Of a stretch of 16,934 nt of DNA, positions 2,215 to 15,386 are shown one piece after another. Both the position numbers and the translations under genes were made by a program. A model generated the notes under the pieces. It worked only from the letters and a program-made list of their open reading frames with translations. It did no database searches and had not been told where the DNA came from. This stretch comes from Deltaproteobacteria bacterium (GTDB taxonomy: Bacteria > Desulfobacterota_C > Deferrisomatia > Deferrisomatales > JACRMM01), in the NCBI GenBank assembly GCA_016218905.1, contig JACRCS010000288.1, positions 1 through 16,934 of the forward strand. The letters are read 5' to 3'. Position 1 is the first letter of the stretch. The number at the start of each line of letters is the position of its first letter.

Positions 2215-2280
2215 CGAGGGGCGAGAGGTGACGAACGCGGCCCCAGGTGCTTGGCTGCAAAGTCGCCGGGCGGAGGCTTC

Positions 2281-3606
2281 ATGACGCAGTTCGCGGTGGT
2301 CGGGTTGGGCAAATTCGGCATGGCCTTGGCCGAAGAGCTCACCCGGCTCGGCCAGGGGGTCATCGCGGTCGACGCGAACCCGGAGAAGACCCGGGACGCT
2401 CAGGCGTTGGTGCGCCAGGCGTTCACGGCAGACGCGACCCAGCGCCCCGCGCTGGTCTCCATGGAACTGGGCAAGGTCGACGTTGCCGTCGTGAGCCTCG
2501 GCCAGCGGATGGACTGGGCCGCCCTCGCCGTCCTGCACCTGAGCGAGCTGGGAGTGCCGCAGATCGTCGCCAAAGCGCTCAACGAAGAGCACGCGGCGAT
2601 GCTCACTCGTCTGGGGGCCTCGCACGTGGTCTTTCCGGAAAAGGAGATGGCGTACCGGGTCGCGGAACAGCTCGGGTCGCGGCACATCCTGAGCTACCTG
2701 CCGCTCGACGCGGACTTCGCGATCCTCGAGCTGGCGACGCCCGCGGCCTGGATCGGCAGGAGCCTGGCCGCCCTCGACCCAGGACGGGCATTCGGAATCC
2801 AGGTTCTCGCCGTCCGCGAGCTCCTGCCCGAGAGGACGATCGTTCCCCCCGGTGGCGACCTCGTCCTCAAGGACAGCGACGTCCTGGTGGTGCTGGGGCC
2901 GGAGAAGATGCTCAGCCGGGTCCGGAGGCTCGACGCCCAGAGGCGTCAGTTCGCCGTGATTGGCCTGGGACGCTTCGGGTACTACATGGTCCGGTCCCTC
3001 TCTGACATGGGGCACGACGTGCTGGCGCTGGACGACCGCAAGGACAACGTCGAGCAGATCGCTCCCTTCTGCTCCCAGGCGCTCGTCGCCGACGCCACCG
3101 ACCAGAGCGAGATCGAGGATACGGGCGCGTTTGAAGCCCAGGTGGGAATCGTCGCGATCGGCGACCGGATCGACGCGTCGATCCTCGCGACCCTGTATTT
3201 GAAGGAAGCGGGCGTGAGGGAGATCATCGCGAAGGCCGGTTCCCCCGCGCACGCGAGAATCCTCGCTCGCATCGGGGCCAGCGACGTCGTCCACCCGGAA
3301 CGAGACGCGGCGTTGCTCACCGCTCAGCGCTTGGCCGCGCCCACGGTCTTGGAGCGCCTGCCCTTTCTCGAGGGCTACGCCATAAGCGAGACGCCGGCGC
3401 CAAGGGCCTTGTGGGGAGTGAGCCTGAGCCGCACGCACCTCCGGTCCGCACACAACGTCTCGGTCATCCTGATCAAGCGCCGGGTCGCCGGAGAGGACCT
3501 GACCCTGCCGGCGCGCCCCGACGAGGTCTTTCGGGAGGGGGACAAGCTGCTCGTGCTGGTCCGTCCGAACGACCTGGAGGCTTTCCGGAAGGCCTACCCC
3601 GAATGA
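2281..3606 (+). CDS. trkA: TrkA-type K+ channel regulatory subunit with two RCK (TrkA-N/TrkA-C) units
   Basis: This cytoplasmic NAD(H)/nucleotide-binding gating subunit controls the membrane channel encoded next to it. It has 441 residues and consists of two tandem RCK units, like E. coli TrkA and unlike the single-unit KtrA. The first Rossmann motif is GLGKFG (G8, G10, G13) followed by an acidic strand end (IAVDAN). The second is GLGRFG (G228, G230, G233) with LALDDR. Each unit is followed by a TrkA-C domain, the first around 135-215 and the second near the end (FREGDKLLVLVRP). The start at 2281 is chosen because GGAGG lies six bases upstream and the protein then begins directly with the Rossmann strand; upstream in-frame codons would only add unrelated residues. 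The stop overlaps the start of the channel gene (ATGA), indicating translational coupling. RCK C-domains bind c-di-AMP in some bacteria, but that cannot be read here. Confidence 0.94.
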   Translation: MTQFAVVGLGKFGMALAEELTRLGQGVIAVDANPEKTRDAQALVRQAFTADATQRPALVSMELGKVDVAVVSLGQRMDWAALAVLHLSELGVPQIVAKALNEEHAAMLTRLGASHVVFPEKEMAYRVAEQLGSRHILSYLPLDADFAILELATPAAWIGRSLAALDPGRAFGIQVLAVRELLPERTIVPPGGDLVLKDSDVLVVLGPEKMLSRVRRLDAQRRQFAVIGLGRFGYYMVRSLSDMGHDVLALDDRKDNVEQIAPFCSQALVADATDQSEIEDTGAFEAQVGIVAIGDRIDASILATLYLKEAGVREIIAKAGSPAHARILARIGASDVVHPERDAALLTAQRLAAPTVLERLPFLEGYAISETPAPRALWGVSLSRTHLRSAHNVSVILIKRRVAGEDLTLPARPDEVFREGDKLLVLVRPNDLEAFRKAYPE

Positions 3607-5096
3607 GCGGCTTCGGCGGGCCGCAGGCCGGATCACGTCAGGCAAACCGAGCTCCGGTGAGGCGGAGGCGAGCCGTCAAGCCCTTTTCTCCCGGAAGGAG
3701 CGGGCGTTTTCGGTTCGCCTTCTCGTTGGGGAGGGTCCTGGAGCGGGTCCTTCACCCGACCCAGGTGCTGATCCTCTCCTTCGGCTTGACGATCGCCGTC
3801 GGCACCGCCCTGCTCATGCTCCCGTGGGCGTCCACGAAAGGGACCCTGGGGTTCGTGAACGCGCTGTTTACGGCCACCTCCGCCACGTGCGTGACGGGGC
3901 TTGCCGTCGTGGACACGGGGACGCAGCTCAGCCTCTTCGGGCAGTGCGTCGTCCTCGCGCTGATCCAGTTGGGCGGGCTCGGCATCATGACGTACTCGAG
4001 CGTGTTCCTGCTCATTGCGGGTGGGCGACTCTCCTTTCGCGGGCGGCTCATCGTCCATGAAACGCTGGGACGGAAGAAGGGCCAGCTCTCGGTCCGCCGG
4101 CTCGTGCGTGACGTCTTCGCGTACACGTTCCTCATCGAGGGGGTCGGCGCGCTGGCCCTCACGGCGGTCTTCTCCCGCACCCGTCCGCCCCTCGAGGCCC
4201 TCGCCCACGGCGCCTTCCACAGCGTCTCGGCTTTCTGCAATGCCGGCTTCTCCCTCTATGCGACCAGCTTCATGGAGTATCGGGGCGATTGGCTCCTCAA
4301 CTGGACCGTAATGCTCCTGATCGTGCTGGGCGGCACCGGCTTCATCGTGCTCGAAGATCTCTTCGACGCCTGGCGCGCGCGCCGCGCGGGACGGTCCTTC
4401 CACCTCAGCCTCCACAGCAAGGTGGTGCTGGCAGCGACCGGCGTGTTGATCCTGGCCGGCGCGCTCGCCATCTGGGCCTTCGAACGGGGAAACGCTCTCG
4501 CCCCGCTCCCGTGGCACGAAGCCGCCCTCGCGTCTCTCTTCCAGTCCATCACCGCGCGCACGGCGGGGTTCAACACGCTCGACTACGCCACCCTGACGAG
4601 CACGACCCTCTTCTTCACGATCCTGCTCATGTTCGTCGGCGCGAGCCCGGGCTCCTGTGGGGGCGGAATCAAGACTACCACCTTCTCGGTGGTGCTCGCG
4701 CTCTTCCGGGATCGGCTCCTGGCACGCGACCGGGTGCGGCTCTTTCGGCGTGTCCTTCCCGATGAGCTCGTCGCCCGGTCCGTCGCTCTCCTCGTCGCGT
4801 CCTTCGTCTTCATTACCGCGTTGGTGCTGGTCCTCTCCGGGCTGGAGATCGGCGCCGTACCCTACAGCGACCGGAGGGACGCCTTCCTCGGCCTCTTCTT
4901 CGAGGCCGTCTCGGCGTTCGGAACGGTCGGCCTCTCGACCGGGGTGACCGCCGCCCTCTCCCCGGCGGGGAAGCTCCTGATCACCCTCGCGATGTTCGTC
5001 GGACGACTGGGTCCCCTGACCATGGTCGTGGCGATCAGCCGAAAGTCGGGCGCAGAAGACTTCCAGTACGCCGAAGAAGGTCTGATGGTCGGCTAG
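3603..5096 (+). CDS. trkH: KtrB/TrkH-family K+ transporter membrane subunit
   Basis: This is the ion-conducting inner-membrane subunit of a Trk/Ktr K+ uptake system, 497 residues long. The fourfold MPM pore architecture is visible. The four filter segments carry their glycines: ATSATCVTGL (G99), SAFCNAGFS (G215), ITARTAGFNT (G322) and SAFGTVGLSTG (G443). All-glycine filters are typical of K+-selective members. The gating-loop signature GSCGGGIKTTT lies at about 350-360. An extra basic N-terminal stretch of about 45 residues precedes the first membrane helix. The start is the ATG of the ATGA overlap with trkA at 3603; the frame is open further upstream, but only inside trkA. The protein resembles KtrB/NtpJ more than long TrkH proteins, whereas its partner is a TrkA-like double RCK, which is a mixed pairing. 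The gene ends before a hairpin-rich gap and faces the convergent KimA-like gene. Confidence 0.94.
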   Translation: MSGFGGPQAGSRQANRAPVRRRRAVKPFSPGRSGRFRFAFSLGRVLERVLHPTQVLILSFGLTIAVGTALLMLPWASTKGTLGFVNALFTATSATCVTGLAVVDTGTQLSLFGQCVVLALIQLGGLGIMTYSSVFLLIAGGRLSFRGRLIVHETLGRKKGQLSVRRLVRDVFAYTFLIEGVGALALTAVFSRTRPPLEALAHGAFHSVSAFCNAGFSLYATSFMEYRGDWLLNWTVMLLIVLGGTGFIVLEDLFDAWRARRAGRSFHLSLHSKVVLAATGVLILAGALAIWAFERGNALAPLPWHEAALASLFQSITARTAGFNTLDYATLTSTTLFFTILLMFVGASPGSCGGGIKTTTFSVVLALFRDRLLARDRVRLFRRVLPDELVARSVALLVASFVFITALVLVLSGLEIGAVPYSDRRDAFLGLFFEAVSAFGTVGLSTGVTAALSPAGKLLITLAMFVGRLGPLTMVVAISRKSGAEDFQYAEEGLMVG

Positions 5097-5192: not shown

Positions 5193-7286
5193 TCAGCTGA
5201 TCGCCATCCGGATCGGCAGGATCACCGCCTGGAGCCCGCTGAACTGCATCCGCCTCTGGATCGCGTAGGCGGTGTCATTGTGGAGGAGCCGGTCGTAGAG
5301 CCGCTCCCTCTTGAAGATCAATTGGCCGAGGTAGAACGTCGCCCGGGGATACTGCCGGACGACGTCCTTGCAGAGGGCCTCGGCTTCCTCCACGACCTCC
5401 GTCCCGACCGAGTAGCAGTAGGTCGCGTTCAGGCCGAAACCCCTCGCGCACTCCACGTACCGCTTCAGGTTCGCTTCTGTCTGCTCCCGGAGCGCCTCCA
5501 TCTCGGCCGCTCCCTTGAAGTGGCCGGAGTCCACGGCCCCGACCGAGAGGAAGAGGAAGTTCTTGTAGAACCCGGGGTAGAGCCGCTGGATCGAGAAGAG
5601 CGAGTGCATGCCGAGCCCGCCGTAGCCCGAGACGAGGAGGGCCGCCACCGGTTTCGTGGAATCGATCTGGTCCGAGCCCTGGCCCTCGCCCGGTTCCGGC
5701 AAGGCGCAGAGCACCTCGTCGAGCTTGCGGATCTCCTGGCGCACGCCGTCGTAGTGCTTCCGGACGGCGAAGCAGAGGCCGATGAGCGACGAGGTCACCA
5801 CGACCGTCAGCCAGCCGCCCTCCGAGAACTTCTCGTAGATGGTCACGCAGAGGATCGAAAGGCAGAGGGCCAGGGCGACGAGGTGGACGCAGAGGTTGCG
5901 GCCCCAGCCCTTGTGGTGCTCGCGCCCTTCACTCAACCAGAAGCGGGACATCCCGAGCTGGCTCATGCTGAAGGTGAGGAAGACGTTGATGGCGTAGAGC
6001 ACCACCAGGAAGGAGACCTGGCCGCCGGTATAGAGCATGACCGCTGCCGCGCAGCCGCCGATGAGCACGATGCCGTTCTTCGTCACCAGCCGCTCCGAGA
6101 GGCTCGCGAACCGGTGCGGCACCCAACTGTCGACCGCCATGTTGGAGAGTACCCGCGGACCGTCGACGAAGCCCGCCTGGGCGGCGACGAAGAGGAGGGC
6201 CCCCTCGGAGACGAGCGTGACGACGACCAGCCAGGGGCCGATGTGCAGTGGCCCGAGCGCCCAGGGCGAGAACACGAGCTCCATGAGCACGGCGTTCATG
6301 GTCTTTCCGGGCTGGGGCCTTGCCCCCCAGAGGAGGTAGCAGAGGAGGATCCCGCCCGCGGTGAAGGCGAGCGATACGGCCATATAGAGCATGGTCCGCC
6401 TGCCGGTGGCGACTCTGGGCTCGCGAAGGATCTGGAGCCCGTTCGAGACCGCCTCGATGCCCGTGTAGGTGCCGCCGCCGAGGGAGTAAGCCCGAAAGAA
6501 GAGGAAGAGGAGCGGCGCGAAGCCGAGGGCCTTGAGGTCCGCCGACCCCCGGGCGTGCGCCTGCTCGAGCACTTCCGGCAGGGCTCCCGCTTGGGCGATC
6601 ACCCCATAGAGGATCAGCACCGCATGGGAGACGACGAAGACGAGGAAGATGGGCGTGAGGACCTTCACCGATTCCTTGACGCCCCGCAGGTTCAGGATCA
6701 CCAGCAGGACGAGCGCGGCCATGGCCGCGGCTAGTTTGTTGGGCTGCCACGCGAGCGGCAGGAAACTGAAGATCGCGTCCGCGCCGGCGGCGATCGAGAT
6801 CGCGACCGTCAGGATGTAGTCCACGACCAGCGCGGAGCCCGAGACGACCCCGGCACGCGGGCCGAGGAGCTTCGAGGCGACGACGTACCCGCCGCCTCCG
6901 CTCGGGAAATGCTCGATCATGAGGCTGTACGAGAAGGAGATGACGCCGACCGTCACGGCCATCATCACCGCCAGCACGAGCGCCAGGTACTCGTGTCCGA
7001 GGAGCTGGCGAAAGGCCTCGTCCGGGCCATAGGCCGAGGACGAGAGCCCGTCGGCGCCAAGGCCTACCCAGGCGAGGAACGCGATGAGCGAGATGTGATG
7101 GAAGACCGACGGGTCAGTGGGACTCCGGGGCTTTCCGATCAGGAGGTGCTTGACCTTCTTCAGGAGGCCTTCCTCCTGACCTCCCTCCGGCGGCGCCGGG
7201 GGAGAAGGAAGGAGGTCGTCGGGGCGCGGGAACTCCGCGCCTTCCACACGGTTCGGCTCGAGCGCGTTCTGCGGCACAGTGGGCAC
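5193..7286 (-). CDS. kimA: KimA-like APC-superfamily potassium transporter
   Basis: This is a membrane transporter of about 697 residues resembling KimA (formerly YdaO) of Bacillus, a high-affinity proton-coupled K+ importer inhibited by c-di-AMP. The first helix has GLGADGLSSSAYG, which aligns with the KimA segment holding the K+-site Asp and Tyr seven residues apart (here D79 and Y86). FPSGGGGYVVAS and VVDYILTVAISIAAGAD match the following helices. About twelve membrane segments are followed by a soluble C-terminal domain (about 560-697), which in KimA is the c-di-AMP site. The N-terminal 45 residues are Pro-rich and not conserved. GTG at 7286 is preferred because GAGG lies six bases upstream and it is downstream of the predicted sigma-54 start; GTG at 7277 is an alternative. 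Some database entries call such proteins amino-acid permeases; the K+ gene neighbourhood favours KimA. Confidence 0.8.
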   Translation of the reverse strand: MPTVPQNALEPNRVEGAEFPRPDDLLPSPPAPPEGGQEEGLLKKVKHLLIGKPRSPTDPSVFHHISLIAFLAWVGLGADGLSSSAYGPDEAFRQLLGHEYLALVLAVMMAVTVGVISFSYSLMIEHFPSGGGGYVVASKLLGPRAGVVSGSALVVDYILTVAISIAAGADAIFSFLPLAWQPNKLAAAMAALVLLVILNLRGVKESVKVLTPIFLVFVVSHAVLILYGVIAQAGALPEVLEQAHARGSADLKALGFAPLLFLFFRAYSLGGGTYTGIEAVSNGLQILREPRVATGRRTMLYMAVSLAFTAGGILLCYLLWGARPQPGKTMNAVLMELVFSPWALGPLHIGPWLVVVTLVSEGALLFVAAQAGFVDGPRVLSNMAVDSWVPHRFASLSERLVTKNGIVLIGGCAAAVMLYTGGQVSFLVVLYAINVFLTFSMSQLGMSRFWLSEGREHHKGWGRNLCVHLVALALCLSILCVTIYEKFSEGGWLTVVVTSSLIGLCFAVRKHYDGVRQEIRKLDEVLCALPEPGEGQGSDQIDSTKPVAALLVSGYGGLGMHSLFSIQRLYPGFYKNFLFLSVGAVDSGHFKGAAEMEALREQTEANLKRYVECARGFGLNATYCYSVGTEVVEEAEALCKDVVRQYPRATFYLGQLIFKRERLYDRLLHNDTAYAIQRRMQFSGLQAVILPIRMAIS

Positions 7287-7347: not shown

Positions 7348-7363
7348 AGCAACCACCGTGCCG
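7348..7363 (-). promoter_or_regulatory. Sigma-54 promoter (-24/-12) of the kimA-like gene
   Basis: Read on the minus strand, the element is CGGCACG-GTGG-TTGCT. It matches the sigma-54 consensus TGGCACG-N4-TTGCW at all defined positions except the first, with the obligatory GG and GC exactly ten bases apart. Transcription would start near 7337, about 50 bases before the chosen GTG at 7286. The paired sites at 7407-7450 lie 76 and 107 bases upstream of that start. Confidence 0.82.
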
Positions 7364-7406
7364 GGCTCGAACCCGCCGCCGGGGCGCACCGGATCGGTCC
7401 GGGAGG

Positions 7407-7419
7407 TTGCGAAATGCAA
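7407..7419 (+). promoter_or_regulatory. Putative enhancer (UAS) site 1 upstream of kimA
   Basis: TTGCGAAATGCAA is an interrupted palindrome of the form TTGC-N5-GCAA. Its centre (7413) lies 76 bp upstream of the predicted kimA start. It shares the pattern TTGC(R)(R)AATGC(M)A with both sites at 10797-10840. Confidence 0.65.
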
Positions 7420-7437
7420 GATGGGAGGAGGGGACTA

Positions 7438-7450
7438 CTGCAATTTGCAG
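7438..7450 (+). promoter_or_regulatory. Putative enhancer (UAS) site 2 upstream of kimA
   Basis: CTGCAATTTGCAG is a perfect palindrome around its centre base and keeps the TGC-N5-GCA core. Its centre (7444) is 31 bp from that of site 1, about three helical turns, and 107 bp upstream of the predicted start. It lies 24 bases beyond the stop codon of the neighbouring kinase gene. Confidence 0.6.
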
Positions 7451-7473
7451 GGCGGGGCTGCGGCGGGCAGGAG

Positions 7474-9312
7474 CTACCTTGGCTGAGGCGAGACTGGAAT
7501 CGTGAACCAGAAGACGCTCCCTCGTTTCGCCTGGAGGCCGCCGGGTACGGCGCTCTCGACCCCGATCCTCCCCCGGTGCGCGGCGACGATCTCCTTGGCG
7601 ATGGCGAGTCCGAACCCTGCGGCGCCGGCGGCCGAGCCGGGCACCCTGTAGCCCTTCTCGAAGATCTTGTCACGGCTAGAGCCGGGGACTCCTGGTCCGG
7701 TGTCGGCGACCTCGAATCGGACCGCGGCCCCTTCCCGCCGCGCCCGGACCTCCACAGAGCCCTCCGGCGGGGTGTGGCGCAGGGCATTGCCGATGAGGTT
7801 GTCGAAGACGAGGGCGAGGCGCTCGGGGTCGCCGAGGACGCTCTCGCCCCGGCCCGTCTCCACGCACAGGAGGGCGACGGACGCGCGGGAGGCGGCGTCC
7901 CGGTGTCGGGCCACCGCGTCCTCCGTGAGCTCCGAGGCGGAGACGCTCCGAAGTCGCAGCTCGATCTTCCCGGACCGGATCCGGGAGAGGTCGAGGAGGT
8001 CGTCGACGATCGTCTGGAGCCGCTCGCACTCCTCGCGCGCGGCTGAGAGGAGGTCGGCCTGCTTCTCCGTGAGGGGGCCCACCGCCTCTTCGAGACACAG
8101 GTGCACCGACATCCGGATTGCCGTCAAAGGCGTCCGAAATTCATGTGCCACCGTGGAGACCATGTCGTCGCGCAGGTCCTCGAGGCGCTTGAACCGGGTG
8201 ACGTCCTGGAGGACCTCGGTGGCGCCGATGGTAATCCCGTCCTCGTCCCGAAAGGGCGCGGTCCAGAGTAGATACTGCCGGTTCCCGCTTCCCGTCGGGA
8301 TCTGCAGGGCATCCTGCATGCCCTTCGGTACCAGCGGACCTTTGCCGGCGAGGACGTGGGAGTAGGCTCGGACGAGAGCTTCCCGAAGCTCGGGGTTCAC
8401 CTGGTCGAGAGAGGAGATGTCCCCGAGGACCTCTTCGGCTGCCCGGTTGATGCTGATCACCTCTCCCTTCAGGCCGAGGATGAAGACCGGCTCCGGCAGG
8501 CTGTCCATGGAGGCTTGTGCGGCGAGTTGGGCTCGGAGGAGCTCTCCGAGGGAGCTCTTCCGGTACTGCTGGAGGTGCTCCGCCATGCCGTTGAACTCGC
8601 GGGCGAGCTCCACGATCTCGTCCCCGCCCGCCAGCCTGGCGCGGGCGTCCCAATCGCCTTCACCGAACCGGCGGACCGCCTGCTGCAGCACGTGCACCGG
8701 GCGAAGGACCCGACGGGTGAGAACCGTGGAGGCGAGAATCGCGACGATGCCGGCGGCGAGCGCGGCAATCGCCCAGGCGAGTCGTACCTTCTCGGCGAGG
8801 CCTCGAGCACGATCGCTCTTCCGGACCATGGCTTCCTGATTCAACGCGAGGATCTCGTCGACGGCGGCTCGAAGTTCCTCCAGGGCCGGGGAAATCCGGT
8901 CCGAGTACTCCCGCCGGATCGCCGGCGGGTCGCGGCTCGACGAGACCTCGCGGAGAGCCACCTTGACGCGCTCCCACCTCTCCCGGAGCCGGCGGGTGAG
9001 CTCGATCTCACCGGGTTCGGTGATGTTGCCCTCCTGGAACCGGAGCTCCGCCTCGAACCTGGGTCCCTCGCGCCCGGCGAGCTCGAGACCCTCGGGCTGA
9101 ATGCCCGCCATCCAGGTCAGCAGAGCCGAGTCGATGCGCTCGGCCCTCTCCCTCATGCGCTCGGCCGCGAGGACGCTGCGGTAGTTGTCCTTGAGGATGG
9201 TCTGCGAGCTTTCCCCCAGTCGGGAGATGGTGACGAGGGCGAGGACGGTCAGGCCGGCCAGTGCAGCGAGGAGGGGGATCTGGGCCAGGAGCACCTTTGC
9301 GCGCAGGGTCAT
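7474..9312 (-). CDS. Membrane sensor histidine kinase (sensor-HAMP-PAS-HisKA-HATPase)
   Basis: This is a 612-residue inner-membrane kinase. Membrane helices at about 8-30 and 176-199 bracket a mostly helical periplasmic region that contains DNYRSVLAAERM. HAMP follows (about 197-250), then a PAS domain (about 262-375). The HisKA domain has its phospho-accepting H390 in STVAHEFRTPLTAIR. The ATPase domain has the N-box NLIGNALRH (506-514), DTGPGVP (537-543) and GFGLAIA (566-572). The start ATG overlaps the TGA of the upstream KdpDN-Usp gene (ATGA at 9309-9312), so the two are translationally coupled. The kinase seems to supply the catalytic half that the KdpDN-Usp protein lacks. Its sensor region is clearly similar to that of the kinase at 11973-13808. 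Likely receivers are the sigma-54 regulator (807-2168) or the single-domain regulator (10958-11329); the sequence does not decide between them. Confidence 0.92.
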   Translation of the reverse strand: MTLRAKVLLAQIPLLAALAGLTVLALVTISRLGESSQTILKDNYRSVLAAERMRERAERIDSALLTWMAGIQPEGLELAGREGPRFEAELRFQEGNITEPGEIELTRRLRERWERVKVALREVSSSRDPPAIRREYSDRISPALEELRAAVDEILALNQEAMVRKSDRARGLAEKVRLAWAIAALAAGIVAILASTVLTRRVLRPVHVLQQAVRRFGEGDWDARARLAGGDEIVELAREFNGMAEHLQQYRKSSLGELLRAQLAAQASMDSLPEPVFILGLKGEVISINRAAEEVLGDISSLDQVNPELREALVRAYSHVLAGKGPLVPKGMQDALQIPTGSGNRQYLLWTAPFRDEDGITIGATEVLQDVTRFKRLEDLRDDMVSTVAHEFRTPLTAIRMSVHLCLEEAVGPLTEKQADLLSAAREECERLQTIVDDLLDLSRIRSGKIELRLRSVSASELTEDAVARHRDAASRASVALLCVETGRGESVLGDPERLALVFDNLIGNALRHTPPEGSVEVRARREGAAVRFEVADTGPGVPGSSRDKIFEKGYRVPGSAAGAAGFGLAIAKEIVAAHRGRIGVESAVPGGLQAKRGSVFWFTIPVSPQPR

Positions 9313-10454
9313 TCCGGTCTCTCCTCCCTCTCCAGAGAGGCGATGTACACGTCGATGCCTTCGGCCTCGTCGACGATCCGGTGCACGGGCGAGCGGCGGA
9401 GGAGTCGGCGCCACCACGGCTGGCGAGTTCGGCCGAGGATCAAATGGCCGACCCGATGGGAGCGGGCGAAGTCCAGGAGTGCGGGAACCGGGTCTTTCGC
9501 GTCGAGTCGCACCACCTCCGCGCCCAGCTCTTCGGCCCTCTGGAAATTTTCGAGGAGGTGACGCTGCGCGTCGGGGTCGATCCTGCCGGGAGCTTCGGCG
9601 GGCGTCTCCACGTACACGACGAACCAGTGGGCGTTGAGCCGCCCCGCCATGCGGGAGCCCCTCCGCAGGAGCGCCGCGGCGTGCAGCGGCATGGAGGAGA
9701 TCGCTACCATCACCCGGTCGCCGCTCAGCGGTCTCTGTCCCGCGTCGAGGCCGCGCCGTCCCGCCCGCTCCACGCTCTCCGCGGTCTCGCGCAGGGTGAG
9801 CTCCCGGAGCGAGAGCAGGTTCTCCTGGCGAAAGAAGTGCTCCAGGGCCCAGGGAATGCGCTCGTCGGCGTAGATCTTTCCGGCCTTCAGGCGATCGAGG
9901 AGGTCTTCGACGGGGAGATCTACGTTCACGATCTGATCGGCCCGGCGCAGGAAGGTGTCGGGGACGGTCTCCCGGACCCGCACGCCGGTTGCCCGCTCGA
10001 TCATGTCGTTGAGGCTCTCCAGGTGCTGAAGGTTGAACGCGGCGAGGACGTTGATGCCGGACTCCAGGAGCTCGAGGATGTCCTGGTAGCGCTTCCGGTT
10101 CTTCGAACCGGGCGCGTTGGTGTGGGCCACCTCGTCGACGAGGCAGATCTCGGGTGCGCGCGCGAGGACCGCTTCGACGTCCATCTCCGAGATCGTGATG
10201 CCTCGGTACTCGACGCTCCTGGGCGTCGCGATTTCCAGACCGGGGATCAAGGCCGCCGTTTCCGGACGGCCGTGGGTGTCTACGGCCCCGATCACGACGT
10301 CGCTCCCACGTTCCTTCAGAACGTGCGCCTCCTGCAGCATCCGGTAGGTCTTTCCGACCCCGGCTACGAAGCCGAGGTAGATCCGGAGCTTCCCTTGGCG
10401 TCCCTGATGGACGAGCTCGAGGAAGTCGTGGGGAGCCGGGCGTTCTACAGCCAT
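9309..10454 (-). CDS. Stand-alone KdpD N-terminal domain plus universal stress (Usp) domain protein
   Basis: This cytoplasmic protein of 381 residues corresponds to the N-terminal sensory part of the K+/osmotic sensor KdpD, without the four-helix membrane domain and the kinase. The KdpD domain (about 1-235) has the modified Walker A GFVAGVGKT (28-36), Walker B CLVDE (104-108) followed by VAHTNAPGS, and the family landmarks QHLESLND and VRETVPD. A Usp-like domain (about 250-381) begins at DRVMVAISSMP; the corresponding domain binds c-di-AMP in the Staphylococcus aureus protein, but the binding motif is not clear here. ATG at 10454 gives a normal KdpD N-terminus, with an AGGGGG stretch eight bases upstream. 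The stop overlaps the start of the kinase gene. The most economical reading is a two-piece KdpD made of this sensor and the neighbouring HAMP-PAS kinase. No kdpFABC gene is visible in the window. Confidence 0.92.
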   Translation of the reverse strand: MAVERPAPHDFLELVHQGRQGKLRIYLGFVAGVGKTYRMLQEAHVLKERGSDVVIGAVDTHGRPETAALIPGLEIATPRSVEYRGITISEMDVEAVLARAPEICLVDEVAHTNAPGSKNRKRYQDILELLESGINVLAAFNLQHLESLNDMIERATGVRVRETVPDTFLRRADQIVNVDLPVEDLLDRLKAGKIYADERIPWALEHFFRQENLLSLRELTLRETAESVERAGRRGLDAGQRPLSGDRVMVAISSMPLHAAALLRRGSRMAGRLNAHWFVVYVETPAEAPGRIDPDAQRHLLENFQRAEELGAEVVRLDAKDPVPALLDFARSHRVGHLILGRTRQPWWRRLLRRSPVHRIVDEAEGIDVYIASLEREERPE

Positions 10455-10662
10455 GGAAGAAGCCCCCTGCCGCGGCCTGTCGCGGCGCGCCGAAGTTGCA
10501 GTCGATCGCCCGTTCGCGACGAGCACGTTGACCCAGGGCTCGCACGGGAGCCGAGGGGGGCGCCCCCTTTCACCTGTTCCCGGATCAGCGCCGATCTGCA
10601 GCCAGCGTTGGCGTTCACGGGGCGCAGGAGAGCGTCTCGCGCGTCCGGGCCGGTACTCAGCG

Positions 10663-10691
10663 ATTATAGGGCCTCTCCGCCCCGGGGTCAG
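10663..10691 (-). promoter_or_regulatory. Sigma-70-type promoter in the leader of the KdpDN-Usp operon
   Basis: On the minus strand CTGACC (10691-10686) and a perfect TATAAT (10668-10663) are separated by exactly 17 bases. The start would be near 10656, downstream of the sigma-54 start near 10737. This could supply a basal level of sensor and kinase, with sigma-54 giving induction. A TATAAT in DNA this rich in G+C is unlikely to be frequent by chance. Confidence 0.55.
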
Positions 10692-10747
10692 AGAGCCGGT
10701 TACAGCTGGCGGCGCGCTTCCCACCTTCCTCCTCCCCTGCTTGGCGT

Positions 10748-10763
10748 AGCAAGGGTCGTGCCG
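10748..10763 (-). promoter_or_regulatory. Sigma-54 promoter of the KdpDN-Usp/kinase operon
   Basis: The minus-strand element CGGCACG-ACCC-TTGCT matches TGGCACG-N4-TTGCW at all defined positions except the first and has the required GG-N10-GC spacing. It is the same as the kimA promoter outside the N4 region. The predicted start is near 10737, placing the paired sites at -66 and -97. Confidence 0.8.
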
Positions 10764-10796
10764 ACGGTGATGAGGCTCCGGCAGCGGAAGCCGACG

Positions 10797-10809
10797 TTGC
10801 AGAATGCCA
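10797..10809 (+). promoter_or_regulatory. Putative shared enhancer (UAS) site A
   Basis: TTGCAGAATGCCA has the TTGC-N5-GC(C/A)A form. It faces site B in inverted orientation across 18 bases. The centre (10803) is 66 bp upstream of the minus-strand sigma-54 start and 128 bp upstream of the plus-strand start. Confidence 0.65.
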
Positions 10810-10827
10810 CTCCGGGCCCAGCCCGCC

Positions 10828-10840
10828 TGGCATTCCGCAA
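10828..10840 (-). promoter_or_regulatory. Putative shared enhancer (UAS) site B
   Basis: The minus-strand reading is TTGCGGAATGCCA, which differs from site A at one base. The centre (10834) is 31 bp from site A, the same spacing as in the kimA pair. It lies 97 bp from the predicted start of both divergent sigma-54 promoters. Confidence 0.65.
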
Positions 10841-10904
10841 GACGCCCCTCGGGCCGCGCCCAGCCGATTCCCTCTGGGAAGGGCCCCGGGAGCGGATGTG
10901 TCGA

Positions 10905-10920
10905 TGGCTCACTCATTGCA
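10905..10920 (+). promoter_or_regulatory. Sigma-54 promoter of the single-domain response regulator
   Basis: TGGCTCA-CTCA-TTGCA fits TGGCACG-N4-TTGCW with two mismatches and the exact GG-N10-GC spacing. The start would be near 10931, leaving a 27-base leader that contains the ribosome site GAAGGAGAG before the ATG at 10958. Confidence 0.75.
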
Positions 10921-10957: not shown

Positions 10958-11329
10958 ATGGAACCGAAACCGATCCTCGTCGTCGACGACTCGATGAACA
11001 TCCTTGTTACCGTCGCCAAAGCCTTGGAGATCCTGGGCCACCCCGTGGAGGTCACGGCGTACGCGGAGGAAGCGCTCCAACGCCTCAGCCGGACCGAGTA
11101 CGCCTTGGTGCTGCTCGACCTGGAGCTTTGGGGAATCAGTGGGCTGGAGATGCTGAGGCGCCTACGCGGGCGGGGGATGGAGACTCCCGTCATCATCATC
11201 ACGGCCTACGCGAACCCGGAGAACGAGGCCGAGGCGAGGGACCTCGGAGCGATCGACTTCATCCCGAAGCCCTTCACCCCCTACGAGCTTCGGGAGCGGG
11301 TGGCCCGCGTCCTCGAGCGGTCTGTCTAG
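10958..11329 (+). CDS. Single-domain response regulator (CheY-like receiver)
   Basis: This 123-residue protein is a receiver domain with no output domain. It has D10/D11 (LVVDDS), phosphoacceptor D54 (VLLDLEL), IITAYA with the conserved Thr, and a KPF motif (FIPKPFTPYELRERV). The start at 10958 is preferred over an in-frame ATG 60 bases upstream because GAAGGAGAG lies just before it and the sigma-54 promoter lies between the two. Without an output domain it probably works by protein contact or as a phosphate relay or sink for the divergent kinase. It is strongly similar to the regulator at 13890-14282, including the phrase ENEAEARDLGAIDFI. The gene is followed directly by a CorA remnant, so the downstream order has been rearranged. 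Confidence 0.93.
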   Translation: MEPKPILVVDDSMNILVTVAKALEILGHPVEVTAYAEEALQRLSRTEYALVLLDLELWGISGLEMLRRLRGRGMETPVIIITAYANPENEAEARDLGAIDFIPKPFTPYELRERVARVLERSV

Positions 11330-11972: not shown

Positions 11973-13808
11973 ATGGCCAGAATCACCTCCCTGCGCTGGA
12001 AGATCCTCACCGGGTACGGTATCGCTCTCGGCCTCGTCGGGGTGATCTCGGTCTGGGCTTTTGCGACCCTTCGGGACCTGGGGGAGGCGAGCGACGCGAT
12101 CCTGCGGGAGAACTACAAGAGCGTCCTGGCCGCCGAGCGGATGCTCGAGGCCATCGAGCGGCAGGACAGCGCCGTGCTCCTCGTCCTGCTCGGCTACGAA
12201 CCGGAGGGGGCCCGGCAGTTCAGCGAGAACGAAGGTCCGTTCTTCCAGTCGCTGGGAAGGGCGAAAGACAACATCACGATCTCGGGCGAGCGAGCCATCC
12301 TGGAAGCCATCGACCGGGGCTACGCCCTCTACCTGGTGCGCGTCGGGGAGCTTCGGCTCGCCTACCGTTCGGATCCTCGCCACGCGCGCGACTTCTATCA
12401 CCAGACGGTCTTGCCGGCTTTCAAGGCCGTGCGAAACGGGTGCGGTCAGCTCCGAGACCTCAATGAGGCCGCCATGGTCCAGGCCAGCAACCGGGCGCGG
12501 AAGATCTCGGCTACCGCGCGCTGGTCGGGTGCCTTCACGAGCCTCGCTGCCGTCGGTTTCGGGCTCGCCTTTAGCCTCTTCCTCTCGAGTCGGCTTACCC
12601 GACCGCTGCGCCAGATGACCTCCGCGGCCAAGCGCCTCGCCGGGGGCGACTACCACGTCGAGATCGACGTCTCGTCGAGGGACGAGCTCGGCCTCCTCGC
12701 GAGCGAGTTCAACGGGATGGCGCAGAAGCTCAAGGCCTTCCGCGACCTCGACCTGGACCGGATCATGGCGGAGAAGGTGCGCAGCGAGGCCATCGTCCGC
12801 AGCATCGACGACGGTCTGCTCGTCGTCGATTCGGCGCTGCGGGTGACGGCGCTCAATCCCAAGGCGGCGGAGATCTTCGGCGTGGCCCCGGAACGGGCCG
12901 CGGAGCGCCACTTCCTCGAGGTCGTCCGCGACGACCGCCTGTACGAGCTCGTCAAGGACGCGGTGGAGAACGCCGCCTCGCCCGCGCTGGAAGAGGGCCG
13001 CGACGTCTTCACCGTCGGACGGGGTTCGGCCCGGCAGCACTACCACTTCTCCATCCTGCCGATCGCCTCGCCGGGGGGGCAGAGGCTCGGAGTGGTGCTC
13101 GTGCTCCGGGACGTGACGCGCCTGAAGGAGCTGGAGCGGCTCAAGAGCGAGTTCGTGATGACGGCGTCCCACGAGCTCCGAACGCCGCTCACGTCCATCG
13201 CGATGGCGATCGATCTCCTGCTGGAGGAGGCGGGGGACGCTCCCCGGGACCAGGAACTCCTCTCGGCGGCTCACGAGGAGGTCGGCCGCCTGCGGGCGCT
13301 CGTCGACGACCTGCTGGACCTCGCCAGGATCGAGGCGGGAAAGATCGAGCTGGAGTTCGCGCCGACCTCTTTGGGCGAGATCTGCGAGCGCGCCCTGGCC
13401 CCCACGGCGGCCCAGGCGGCCGAGCGCGGCGTGGAGCTCGGCATGGCGCTGCCGGAAGGCCTCCCAGACGTGATGGCGGACGGGGCGAAGATCTCGTTCG
13501 TCCTCGTCAACCTGATCGCCAACGCGCTCCGGCACGTCGACCCCGGCGGGCACGTCCGGATCTCGGCCGGCGCCGTGGACGGGCGCGTCCACGTGGCGGT
13601 CGAGGACGACGGAACCGGCATCCCCTACGAGTACCAGTCGAAGATCTTCGACAAGTTCGTGAAGGTCAAGTCGCCGCGCGACGCGGGCGGATCGGGCCTC
13701 GGCCTCTCCATCTGCCGCGAGATCGTCCGTGCGCACGGCGGAAGCATCTGGGTGGATTCCACGCCGGGGAGAGGCAGCAAGTTCACCTTCACGTTACCCG
13801 CGGTCTAA
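11973..13808 (+). CDS. Membrane sensor histidine kinase (sensor-HAMP-PAS-HisKA-HATPase), paralogue of the kinase at 7474-9312
   Basis: This 611-residue inner-membrane kinase has helices at about 10-32 and 184-206 around a helical periplasmic region. HAMP follows (about 205-258), then PAS (about 268-382). H400 lies in TASHELRTPLTSIA, the N-box is NLIANALRH (513-521), then DDGTGIP (545-551), the F-box-like KIFDKFVKV and GLGLSI (575-580). The sensor shares LGEAS-x2-IL-x-ENYKSVLAAERM and the following QDSA and EPEG positions with the other kinase, so both probably detect related cues. The ATG at 11973 has GGGAGA eight bases upstream. No sigma-54 promoter was found in front of it, unlike the first kinase. 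The receiver gene at 13890 follows after a repeat-bearing gap and is the likely partner. Confidence 0.93.
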   Translation: MARITSLRWKILTGYGIALGLVGVISVWAFATLRDLGEASDAILRENYKSVLAAERMLEAIERQDSAVLLVLLGYEPEGARQFSENEGPFFQSLGRAKDNITISGERAILEAIDRGYALYLVRVGELRLAYRSDPRHARDFYHQTVLPAFKAVRNGCGQLRDLNEAAMVQASNRARKISATARWSGAFTSLAAVGFGLAFSLFLSSRLTRPLRQMTSAAKRLAGGDYHVEIDVSSRDELGLLASEFNGMAQKLKAFRDLDLDRIMAEKVRSEAIVRSIDDGLLVVDSALRVTALNPKAAEIFGVAPERAAERHFLEVVRDDRLYELVKDAVENAASPALEEGRDVFTVGRGSARQHYHFSILPIASPGGQRLGVVLVLRDVTRLKELERLKSEFVMTASHELRTPLTSIAMAIDLLLEEAGDAPRDQELLSAAHEEVGRLRALVDDLLDLARIEAGKIELEFAPTSLGEICERALAPTAAQAAERGVELGMALPEGLPDVMADGAKISFVLVNLIANALRHVDPGGHVRISAGAVDGRVHVAVEDDGTGIPYEYQSKIFDKFVKVKSPRDAGGSGLGLSICREIVRAHGGSIWVDSTPGRGSKFTFTLPAV

Positions 13809-13817
13809 CAGACGAGG

Positions 13818-13880
13818 CGATTAGGGGTTAGGTGTTTGTCGGTACTCCTAAAGCCCAACAGCTAAAGCCTAATGACTAGA
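13818..13880. repeat. Imperfect inverted repeat GATTAGGGGTTAGG ... CTAAAGCCTAATGA
   Basis: The 81-base gap between the kinase and its regulator contains ATTAGGGGTTAG, pairing with CTAAAGCCTAAT at 10 of 12 positions, with a further CCTAAAGCCC copy between them. It is AT-richer than its surroundings and ends about ten bases before the next ATG. The style matches the ACTGA repeats elsewhere in the window, although the units differ. Confidence 0.6.
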
Positions 13881-13889
13881 GGTAAGACC

Positions 13890-14282
13890 ATGGAGACGAG
13901 ACCCATCCTGGTCGTGGACGACTCGAACAACATCCTGCTGACCGTCTCGAAGGCGCTCGCGAAGCTCGGGCTGCCGATCGAAACGACGGCCTACGCGGAG
14001 GACGCTCTCCTACGTCTGGAGCGCGGCACCGCGTACGCCGTGATCCTCCTCGACCTGGAGCTCCACGGAATGGGCGGACTCGAGATGCTGCGGAGGCTGC
14101 GCACGCGCCATCCCGGCGTCCCCGTCGTGGTCATCACGGCCTACGGGACCCGGGAGAACGAGGCGGAGGCGAGGAGTCTCGGAGCTGTCGACTTCATCGC
14201 GAAGCCTTTCACGCCCGAGGAGATCCGGGAGCGGGTGGCCCGGGCCGCCGGCCTCGAGGGGGCGCGGGCTCCTGGATCCTGA
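13890..14282 (+). CDS. Single-domain response regulator, paralogue of the one at 10958-11329
   Basis: This 130-residue receiver protein has D10/D11 (LVVDDS), phosphoacceptor D55 (ILLDLEL), VITAYG with the conserved Thr, and FIAKPFTPEEIRERV. There is no output domain; a short Ala/Gly/Arg tail ends the protein. ATG at 13890 is chosen because AGAGG lies seven bases upstream and the N-terminus then matches the other regulator; an in-frame ATG 18 bases earlier is possible. It follows the second kinase and shares ENEAEAR-x-LGA-x-DFI with the first regulator, so the kinase-regulator pair looks duplicated. Confidence 0.93.
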   Translation: METRPILVVDDSNNILLTVSKALAKLGLPIETTAYAEDALLRLERGTAYAVILLDLELHGMGGLEMLRRLRTRHPGVPVVVITAYGTRENEAEARSLGAVDFIAKPFTPEEIRERVARAAGLEGARAPGS

Positions 14283-15292: not shown

Positions 15293-15386
15293 TGCCTTGC
15301 GTCCCGCCGACCCGCGGCTACCCTTGAGCAAACCTCGCGCCGAAGGCGTTTCTGCCCGTGGGCGAGCGCAACAGAGAGGAGGGACC

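Follow-up and report, generated by a model that had tools for sequence, protein, structure and literature searches.

The control of the Kdp potassium uptake system is a textbook case built on the KdpD/KdpE pair. A sigma-54-dependent form of this control has also been reported: in Desulfovibrio vulgaris Hildenborough the NtrC-type regulator DVU3334 has kdpFABC as a target, and the kinase is divided into two proteins, KdpDN-Usp and a stand-alone kinase (Rajeev 2011, PMC3333781). Those authors found DVU3334 orthologues in just two other genomes. DVU3334 is also placed, with DVU3339.1-DVU3337 and potassium uptake, among sigma-54 regulators (Kazakov 2015, PMC4641369). Here we describe a stretch of 16,934 nucleotides from a deltaproteobacterial genome (contig JACRCS010000288.1; hereafter the window) that encodes a sigma-54 activator, a KimA-like potassium transporter, a kinase-less KdpDN-Usp protein and a membrane histidine kinase (HK1). 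As judged from sequence comparison, the window and its relatives very probably represent a two-component, sigma-54-dependent regulon for potassium limitation. This reading follows from conserved paired sites, conserved -24/-12 elements, gene linkage and co-occurrence with the activator. In a large bacterial group ATP-driven sigma-54 activation appears to take the place of KdpD/KdpE, which would give a tight potassium switch.

Like the DVU3334 system, the window and most of the 40 activator loci described below combine an NtrC-type regulator, KdpDN-Usp, a separate kinase and potassium uptake genes. The DVU3334 gene order is that of two Desulfovibrio-type loci, L207 and L209, and from gene order we infer that L207-L209 carry DVU3334 orthologues. 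Their activators are 44-47% identical to that of the window and fall outside both its clade and the sister of that clade in our tree. No clear site pair was found before kdp in L207 and L209; L207 has a sigma-54-like element. A further difference is that the passages on DVU3334 contain no KimA target. A sigma-54-controlled kdp with KdpD in two parts is thus already in print, and the first-pass annotation of the window was too strong in presenting it as a new design (PMC3333781, PMC4641369). The Myxococcota system is a wider variant of this published control. Literature searches found no sigma-54-controlled kimA, Myxococcota kdp activator, paired-site geometry, or porin or small-protein members. 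The passages at hand of a paper on sigma-54 regulons (PMC12316311) mention neither kdp nor potassium, those of another (PMC3162934) tie E. coli kdp to sigma-54 solely via PTS-Ntr, and those on Geobacter describe kdpABCDE as KdpD/KdpE homologues (PMC2700814, PMC10599522).

The likeness to E. coli KdpD/KdpE lies in the KdpD N-terminal sensor domain with Usp and in the output, potassium uptake. In contrast, the window KdpDN consists of KdpD and Usp domains only, with no kinase in the chain, and the linked regulator is an AAA+ sigma-54 activator (Sigma54_activat, HTH_8), not an OmpR-type winged-helix KdpE. AlgB/KinB controls alginate and virulence in Pseudomonas. The window activator is 49-50% identical to Pseudomonas proteins that we infer to be AlgB and is their sister in the tree, and the kinase adjacent to them is akin to HK1 and to a second window kinase, HK2. 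A search of two Pseudomonas loci gave no KdpDN or KimA match. The E. coli glnA enhancer has two NtrC dimer sites about 32 bp apart, about three helical turns; the site distance is similar in the window, whereas the site sequence and the genes differ. In B. subtilis the kimA leader is under cyclic di-AMP (c-di-AMP) riboswitch control; the window transporter is homologous, and its gene carries a sigma-54 unit, whereas Rfam gives no riboswitch match for it. The passages at hand of a paper on high-throughput systematic evolution of ligands by exponential enrichment (PMC8041468) give no AlgB motif.

Regulatory genes, promoter elements and paired sites in the window

The activator gene (807-2168, + strand) encodes a receiver (Pfam Response_reg), an AAA+ domain with a GAFTGA loop in the alignment (Sigma54_activat) and a Fis-type helix-turn-helix (HTH_8) whose helix reads STLWRKRKR. 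By alignment and tree it belongs to an AlgB-like subfamily and is the proposed potassium regulator. The kimA-like gene (5193-7247, - strand) encodes 684 residues from the database start (P0121). KimA 6s3k is its sole PDB sequence match at E 0.001 (E 2.2e-58, residues 3-482), and on this sequence evidence the transporter, already called KimA-like, is a KimA homologue. HK1 (7474-9312, -) comprises HAMP, PAS, HisKA and HATPase domains. KdpDN-Usp (9309-10454, -) joins a KdpD sensor domain, clearly matched in Pfam (E 8.9e-91, 303 bits), to a universal stress (Usp) domain; against NF038185, the KdpD-like non-kinase sensor, it scores 349.7 bits, under the curated cut-off of 550. Across from it lies a gene for a single-domain receiver, REC1 (10958-11329, +; Response_reg).

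Candidate -24/-12 elements were ranked with our own consensus score (maximum 17.7), and 300 dinucleotide shuffles of the window served as controls. The predicted elements of kimA (CGGCACGGTGGTTGCT, 7348-7363, -) and of kdpDN-HK1 (CGGCACGACCCTTGCT, 10748-10763, -) both score 16.7 and are the sole window sites reaching at least 16 on either strand. Shuffled windows hold a mean of 0.04 sites scoring at least 16.5, and never two in one shuffle. The element of REC1 (TGGCTCACTCATTGCA, 10905-10920, +) is weaker, with a score of 15.2. As in sigma-54 promoters, GG and GC stand 10 bp apart in these elements, near TGGCAC-N5-TTGCW, two of them being near-perfect. A further fairly good match, CGGCGCGAGGTTTGCT, occurs at 15327 (-) with a score of at least 15 and has no paired sites.

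Four putative enhancer sites, to which no strand is assigned, resemble TTGC-N5-GCAA. At kimA the proximal site (TTGCGAAATGCAA, 7407-7419) has no mismatch and the distal site (CTGCAATTTGCAG, 7438-7450), 31 bp from it, has two. Between the divergent promoters, TTGCAGAATGCCA (10797-10809) and TGGCATTCCGCAA (10828-10840), again 31 bp apart, have one mismatch each. These are exactly the two pairs present in the window when up to two mismatches summed and spacings of 20-45 are allowed, and each adjoins one of the two high-scoring elements. A 31-bp pair appeared in 0 of 300 shuffles, and pairs spaced by 28-35 bp occur at 0.007 per shuffled window. If transcription starts about 12 nt past the GC, the sites are centred at about -76/-107 for kimA, -66/-97 for kdpDN and -97/-128 for the single-domain regulator.

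Recomputing thus returned the same coordinates and sequences for the three GG-N10-GC elements as in the first-pass annotation, the same four sites as two pairs, with no other pairs in the window, and the same range of -66 to -128 from the predicted starts. The claim of three sigma-54 promoters is upheld in sequence for the two near-consensus elements; the one at 10905 is weak by score, and there context weighs more than score. The identical 31-bp spacing holds for both window pairs, and relatives use 31 or 32.

The unit recurs upstream of kdp operons in relatives

We searched loci of relatives for a unit, at first in stretches of 900 bp and later in 1700 bp. A unit was defined as two sites spaced by 30-33 bp, with at most four mismatches summed, and a -24/-12 element after them. 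The kdpA genes were located by a start motif, which missed some of them, e.g. in L177, L207 and L209. Of the 42 distinct kdpA genes located, 39 have a unit upstream of kdpA itself or of a porin gene preceding it (29/32 of those with the full 1700 bp upstream, 10/10 of those with less). At many loci it lies 1.2-1.5 kb ahead of kdpA, upstream of the porin gene. Among 36 kdpA units, from loci that form 15 kdpA clusters under 75% identity, 22 have a spacing of 32 and 14 one of 31, and a site-to-promoter gap of 62 is found in 18. Spacings of 31 and 32 were seen 13 and 19 times, respectively, compared with about 4 in 10 shuffles. A peak at 36 bp probably reflects conserved coding sequence and was left out of the argument.

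In an internal negative control, none of 39 kdpDN genes in the fetched relative loci was preceded by a unit. The window agrees with this, as its kdpDN is not preceded by kdpABC and carries a unit of its own. In the closest relative, G609, a unit stands before the kdp operon as well as before kimA, and a unit was read by eye before the kdp operon of its class-mate G265. Conservation upstream of kimA is seen in G609 and is inconsistent at other kimA genes.

Genomes with and without the activator were also compared. The exact paired pattern occurs at 14 distinct places in 15 activator-positive genomes and at 4 in 15 negative ones; read backwards, it gives 0 and 5 matches, respectively. Seven of the 14 places lie before kdp, kimA or the activator gene, and an eighth, accompanied by a sigma-54 element, precedes a BBP2 porin gene that stands alone. 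The other six places are unexplained. A KdpA match, in one case just a fragment, turned up in 13 of 60 genomes that lack the activator at E 1e-160. A convincing unit precedes only one of the 12 kdpA genes of genomes first classed as negative (L236), and, as this unit would predict, its genome, G082, was afterwards found by a more permissive search to hold a 58% activator orthologue on the same contig. At E 1e-100 the other 11 genomes of this class gave paralogues of 45-53% in G035, G083 and G086 and none in eight. A weak, distant unit in L239 was put aside. In L221/L229 (G170 C214:4345-4389) we observed a perfect TTGC-N5-GCAA pair with a spacing of 32 bp, with no sigma-54 element found and no potassium gene recognised.

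Distribution, neighbours and phylogeny of the activator

The activator orthologue is present in 82 of 193 Myxococcota genomes (E 1e-160), one per genome at that level. In another phylum, reached via deltaproteobacterial metagenome-assembled genomes, 2 of 118 genomes gave a match (E 1e-155), both from the same sample. A search of 199 Acidobacteriota genomes at E 1e-155 returned no activator match, an empty answer that does not show absence, and a profile search of contigs with the activator alignment gave mostly paralogues among the matches listed. In a Desulfovibrio-related family 15 of 79 genomes had a KdpDN match; one of four loci fetched (L206) has a 62% activator.

We examined 40 of the 82 Myxococcota activator loci, and 16 more later. 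In the first 40, several of which are ended by contig ends, KdpB and KdpDN are each found nearby in 30 and a relative of HK1 in 34. A frequent gene order is kdp genes, kdpDN and HK1, followed by a convergent activator gene.

The activator tree comprises 48 rows (50 sequences from which L253 and L020 were removed) and is midpoint-rooted. The window activator falls in a 30-row clade, with a support of 99/91, that holds all 17 kdp-linked rows; this label also covers L117, where only KdpDN was found. The sister of this clade (94/90) unites two deltaproteobacterial rows with three from Pseudomonas, of which two are identical. The window activator is thus sister to, and not within, the Pseudomonas group taken as AlgB, and several of its relatives are named AlgB in the sources. 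The proposal that this activator switches on potassium genes is supported, at the level of sequence, by the kdp-linked clade and by recurring units before kdpA, some kimA and some activator genes. The tree is also a lead on the origin of AlgB/KinB.

Proposed mechanism

KdpDN-Usp, as a kinase-less potassium or stress sensor, and HK1 would sense jointly, and their linkage to the activator gene suggests that the sensor phosphorylates the activator through a phosphorelay from HK1. The activator would then bind as cooperating dimers to the two conserved TTGC/GTGC-N5-GCAA sites, three helical turns apart, and DNA looping would bring it to the promoter. There it would remodel the sigma-54 polymerase at the conserved GGCAC-N5-TTGC element, from which the transcript start is predicted, so that induction would occur at low potassium. 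The presumed targets in the window are kimA, kdpDN-HK1, which would provide sensor feedback, and probably the single-domain receiver. In relatives the first to name would be the kdp operon, including kdpDN and the kinase and in some cases headed by a BBP2 porin gene. Further targets would be kimA, a BBP2 porin gene standing alone, the gene of a small membrane protein with four cysteines and, in part, that of the activator.

Exceptions and alternative explanations

Several observations weigh against a potassium-limitation regulon. There is no unit before kdpA of L265 (G091), L162 and L179, and the 39 units include a few poor ones, that of L145 being distant from kdpA and that of L180 having a gap of 138 bp. 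Many of the examined loci are closely related. Under a loose criterion only 18 of 50 activator genes have a unit, some of these probably belonging to divergent genes, and the window's own activator gene has none upstream. Genome G001 has a second, more distant activator copy (56%) inside the clade. Random stretches of unrelated loci contain a unit in 3.6% (900 bp) or 7.4% (1700 bp) of cases; the criterion is thus loose, yet the contrast between kdpA and kdpDN is large. Of the 14 places with an exact pair in positive genomes, six lack an explanation, and no exact pair at all occurs in 5 of the 15 positive genomes, which indicates that the sites are degenerate. In the window, the 10905 element is individually weak, sites scoring at least 15 arising 0.78 times per shuffled window. 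In L265 an element of full consensus, TGGCACGACGGTTGCT, was nevertheless observed, preceded by one good site (L135:153 and 68); the missed unit may thus reflect a degenerate second site.

The kimA genes weigh on both sides. Among eight Myxococcota loci, a unit faces kimA in L116, L136, L138 and L144; counting against the regulon, the pair of L147 is accompanied by a weak element and those of L141 and L143 by no good one, and L115 has neither pair nor element. In G609 a unit precedes the closest KimA relative (79%; L262), and, again to the contrary, two of the three kimA genes in the class closest to the window, those of the second G609 KimA (L264) and of the G265 KimA (73%; L263), have no unit but a c-di-AMP riboswitch (RF00379; L264:7909-8044, +, 87.8 bits; L263:7528-7662, +, 91.5 bits). 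The riboswitch scan covered 13 loci; nine other kimA loci gave no match, nor did the window. Among the loci examined, no kimA has both unit and riboswitch, and this alternation makes regulatory replacement directly testable. By sequence, KimA is a real but inconsistent, additional target, and the kdp operon is the main target in most relatives seen.

The units might be genuine and the signal not potassium but envelope or osmotic stress, received via HK1 as in the related AlgB/KinB, with potassium genes as part of the output. We regard this as unlikely. The activator is sister (94/90) to the Pseudomonas rows taken as AlgB, HK1 and HK2 show 30-34% identity to the product of the kinase gene beside those rows, and the proposed regulon includes a BBP2 porin and a small cysteine protein; however, kdp genes and KdpDN are linked to the activator in 30/40 loci, and it is kdpA that units precede in 39/42 cases.

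It is quite improbable that an activator other than that encoded at 807-2168 binds the paired sites, as the units track the presence of this orthologue, including in the genome recognised only later (G082). Myxococcota are nevertheless rich in such activators, and another member in M. xanthus, NmpR, is described as binding a GCGCA-N5-TGCGC dyad with the same 5-bp gap and the half-sites in reverse order (PMC11841059). Chance matches in a GC-rich window are the least credible explanation, with hardly any probability left: the motifs are short and degenerate and the 10905 element alone is not significant, but the 31-bp pair is found in 0/300 shuffles, and 39/42 kdpA contrast with 0/39 kdpDN. Chance is already refuted for both pairs and both strong elements.

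Beyond the potassium-limitation regulon itself, a broader proposal can be made only tentatively, and we lean somewhat against it. An AlgB-type activator with KdpDN might constitute a third general mode of potassium-starvation control, running Kdp, KimA, the BBP2 porin and the four-cysteine protein; it might have replaced the riboswitch off-switch of kimA, and AlgB/KinB might derive from such a potassium regulator.

Other window genes and candidate regulon members

The window also encodes the terminal part of an NhaA antiporter. Genes for potassium uptake of the trkA and trkH/ktrB-like types (2275-5096, +) lie between the activator gene and kimA. They were dropped as regulon targets because trkH has no sigma-54/site-pair unit upstream in the window. 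A second kinase/receiver pair, HK2 and REC2 (11973-14282), consists of apparent paralogues of HK1 and REC1; HK2, more than HK1, resembles the kinase beside the Pseudomonas activator. In L177, the first gene past the kdp-operon unit (1455-1955, +) encodes, as a protein of its own, a relative of the C-terminal domain of KimA, with 28% identity to KimA 501-653 over 158 residues (E 3.5e-13) and no Pfam match.

Potassium genes of unknown function can readily be flagged by the paired site, and two candidate members emerged in this way. Genes for BBP2 outer-membrane porins lie under a unit, alone or heading the kdp operon (L228, -; L183:16052-17191, -; L171:3846-4919, +; L182:2506-3594, -), and the porin ahead of kdpA is BBP2 by Pfam in the three checked (L183, L171 and L182). 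The other is a small protein of 116-130 residues with one likely membrane helix, four invariant cysteines and no Pfam match (L120:8154-8519, -; L129:7758-8120, -; L130:8009-8398, -; L133:18276-18641, +; L134:2404-2751, -), of which seven homologues were found. Site pairs accompany it in L129, L130 and L134, L120 has a single clear site, and in L133 the pair is shared with kdpA. Since its start codon comes 28-31 nt past the beginning of the sigma-54 element, the predicted transcript would have almost no leader.

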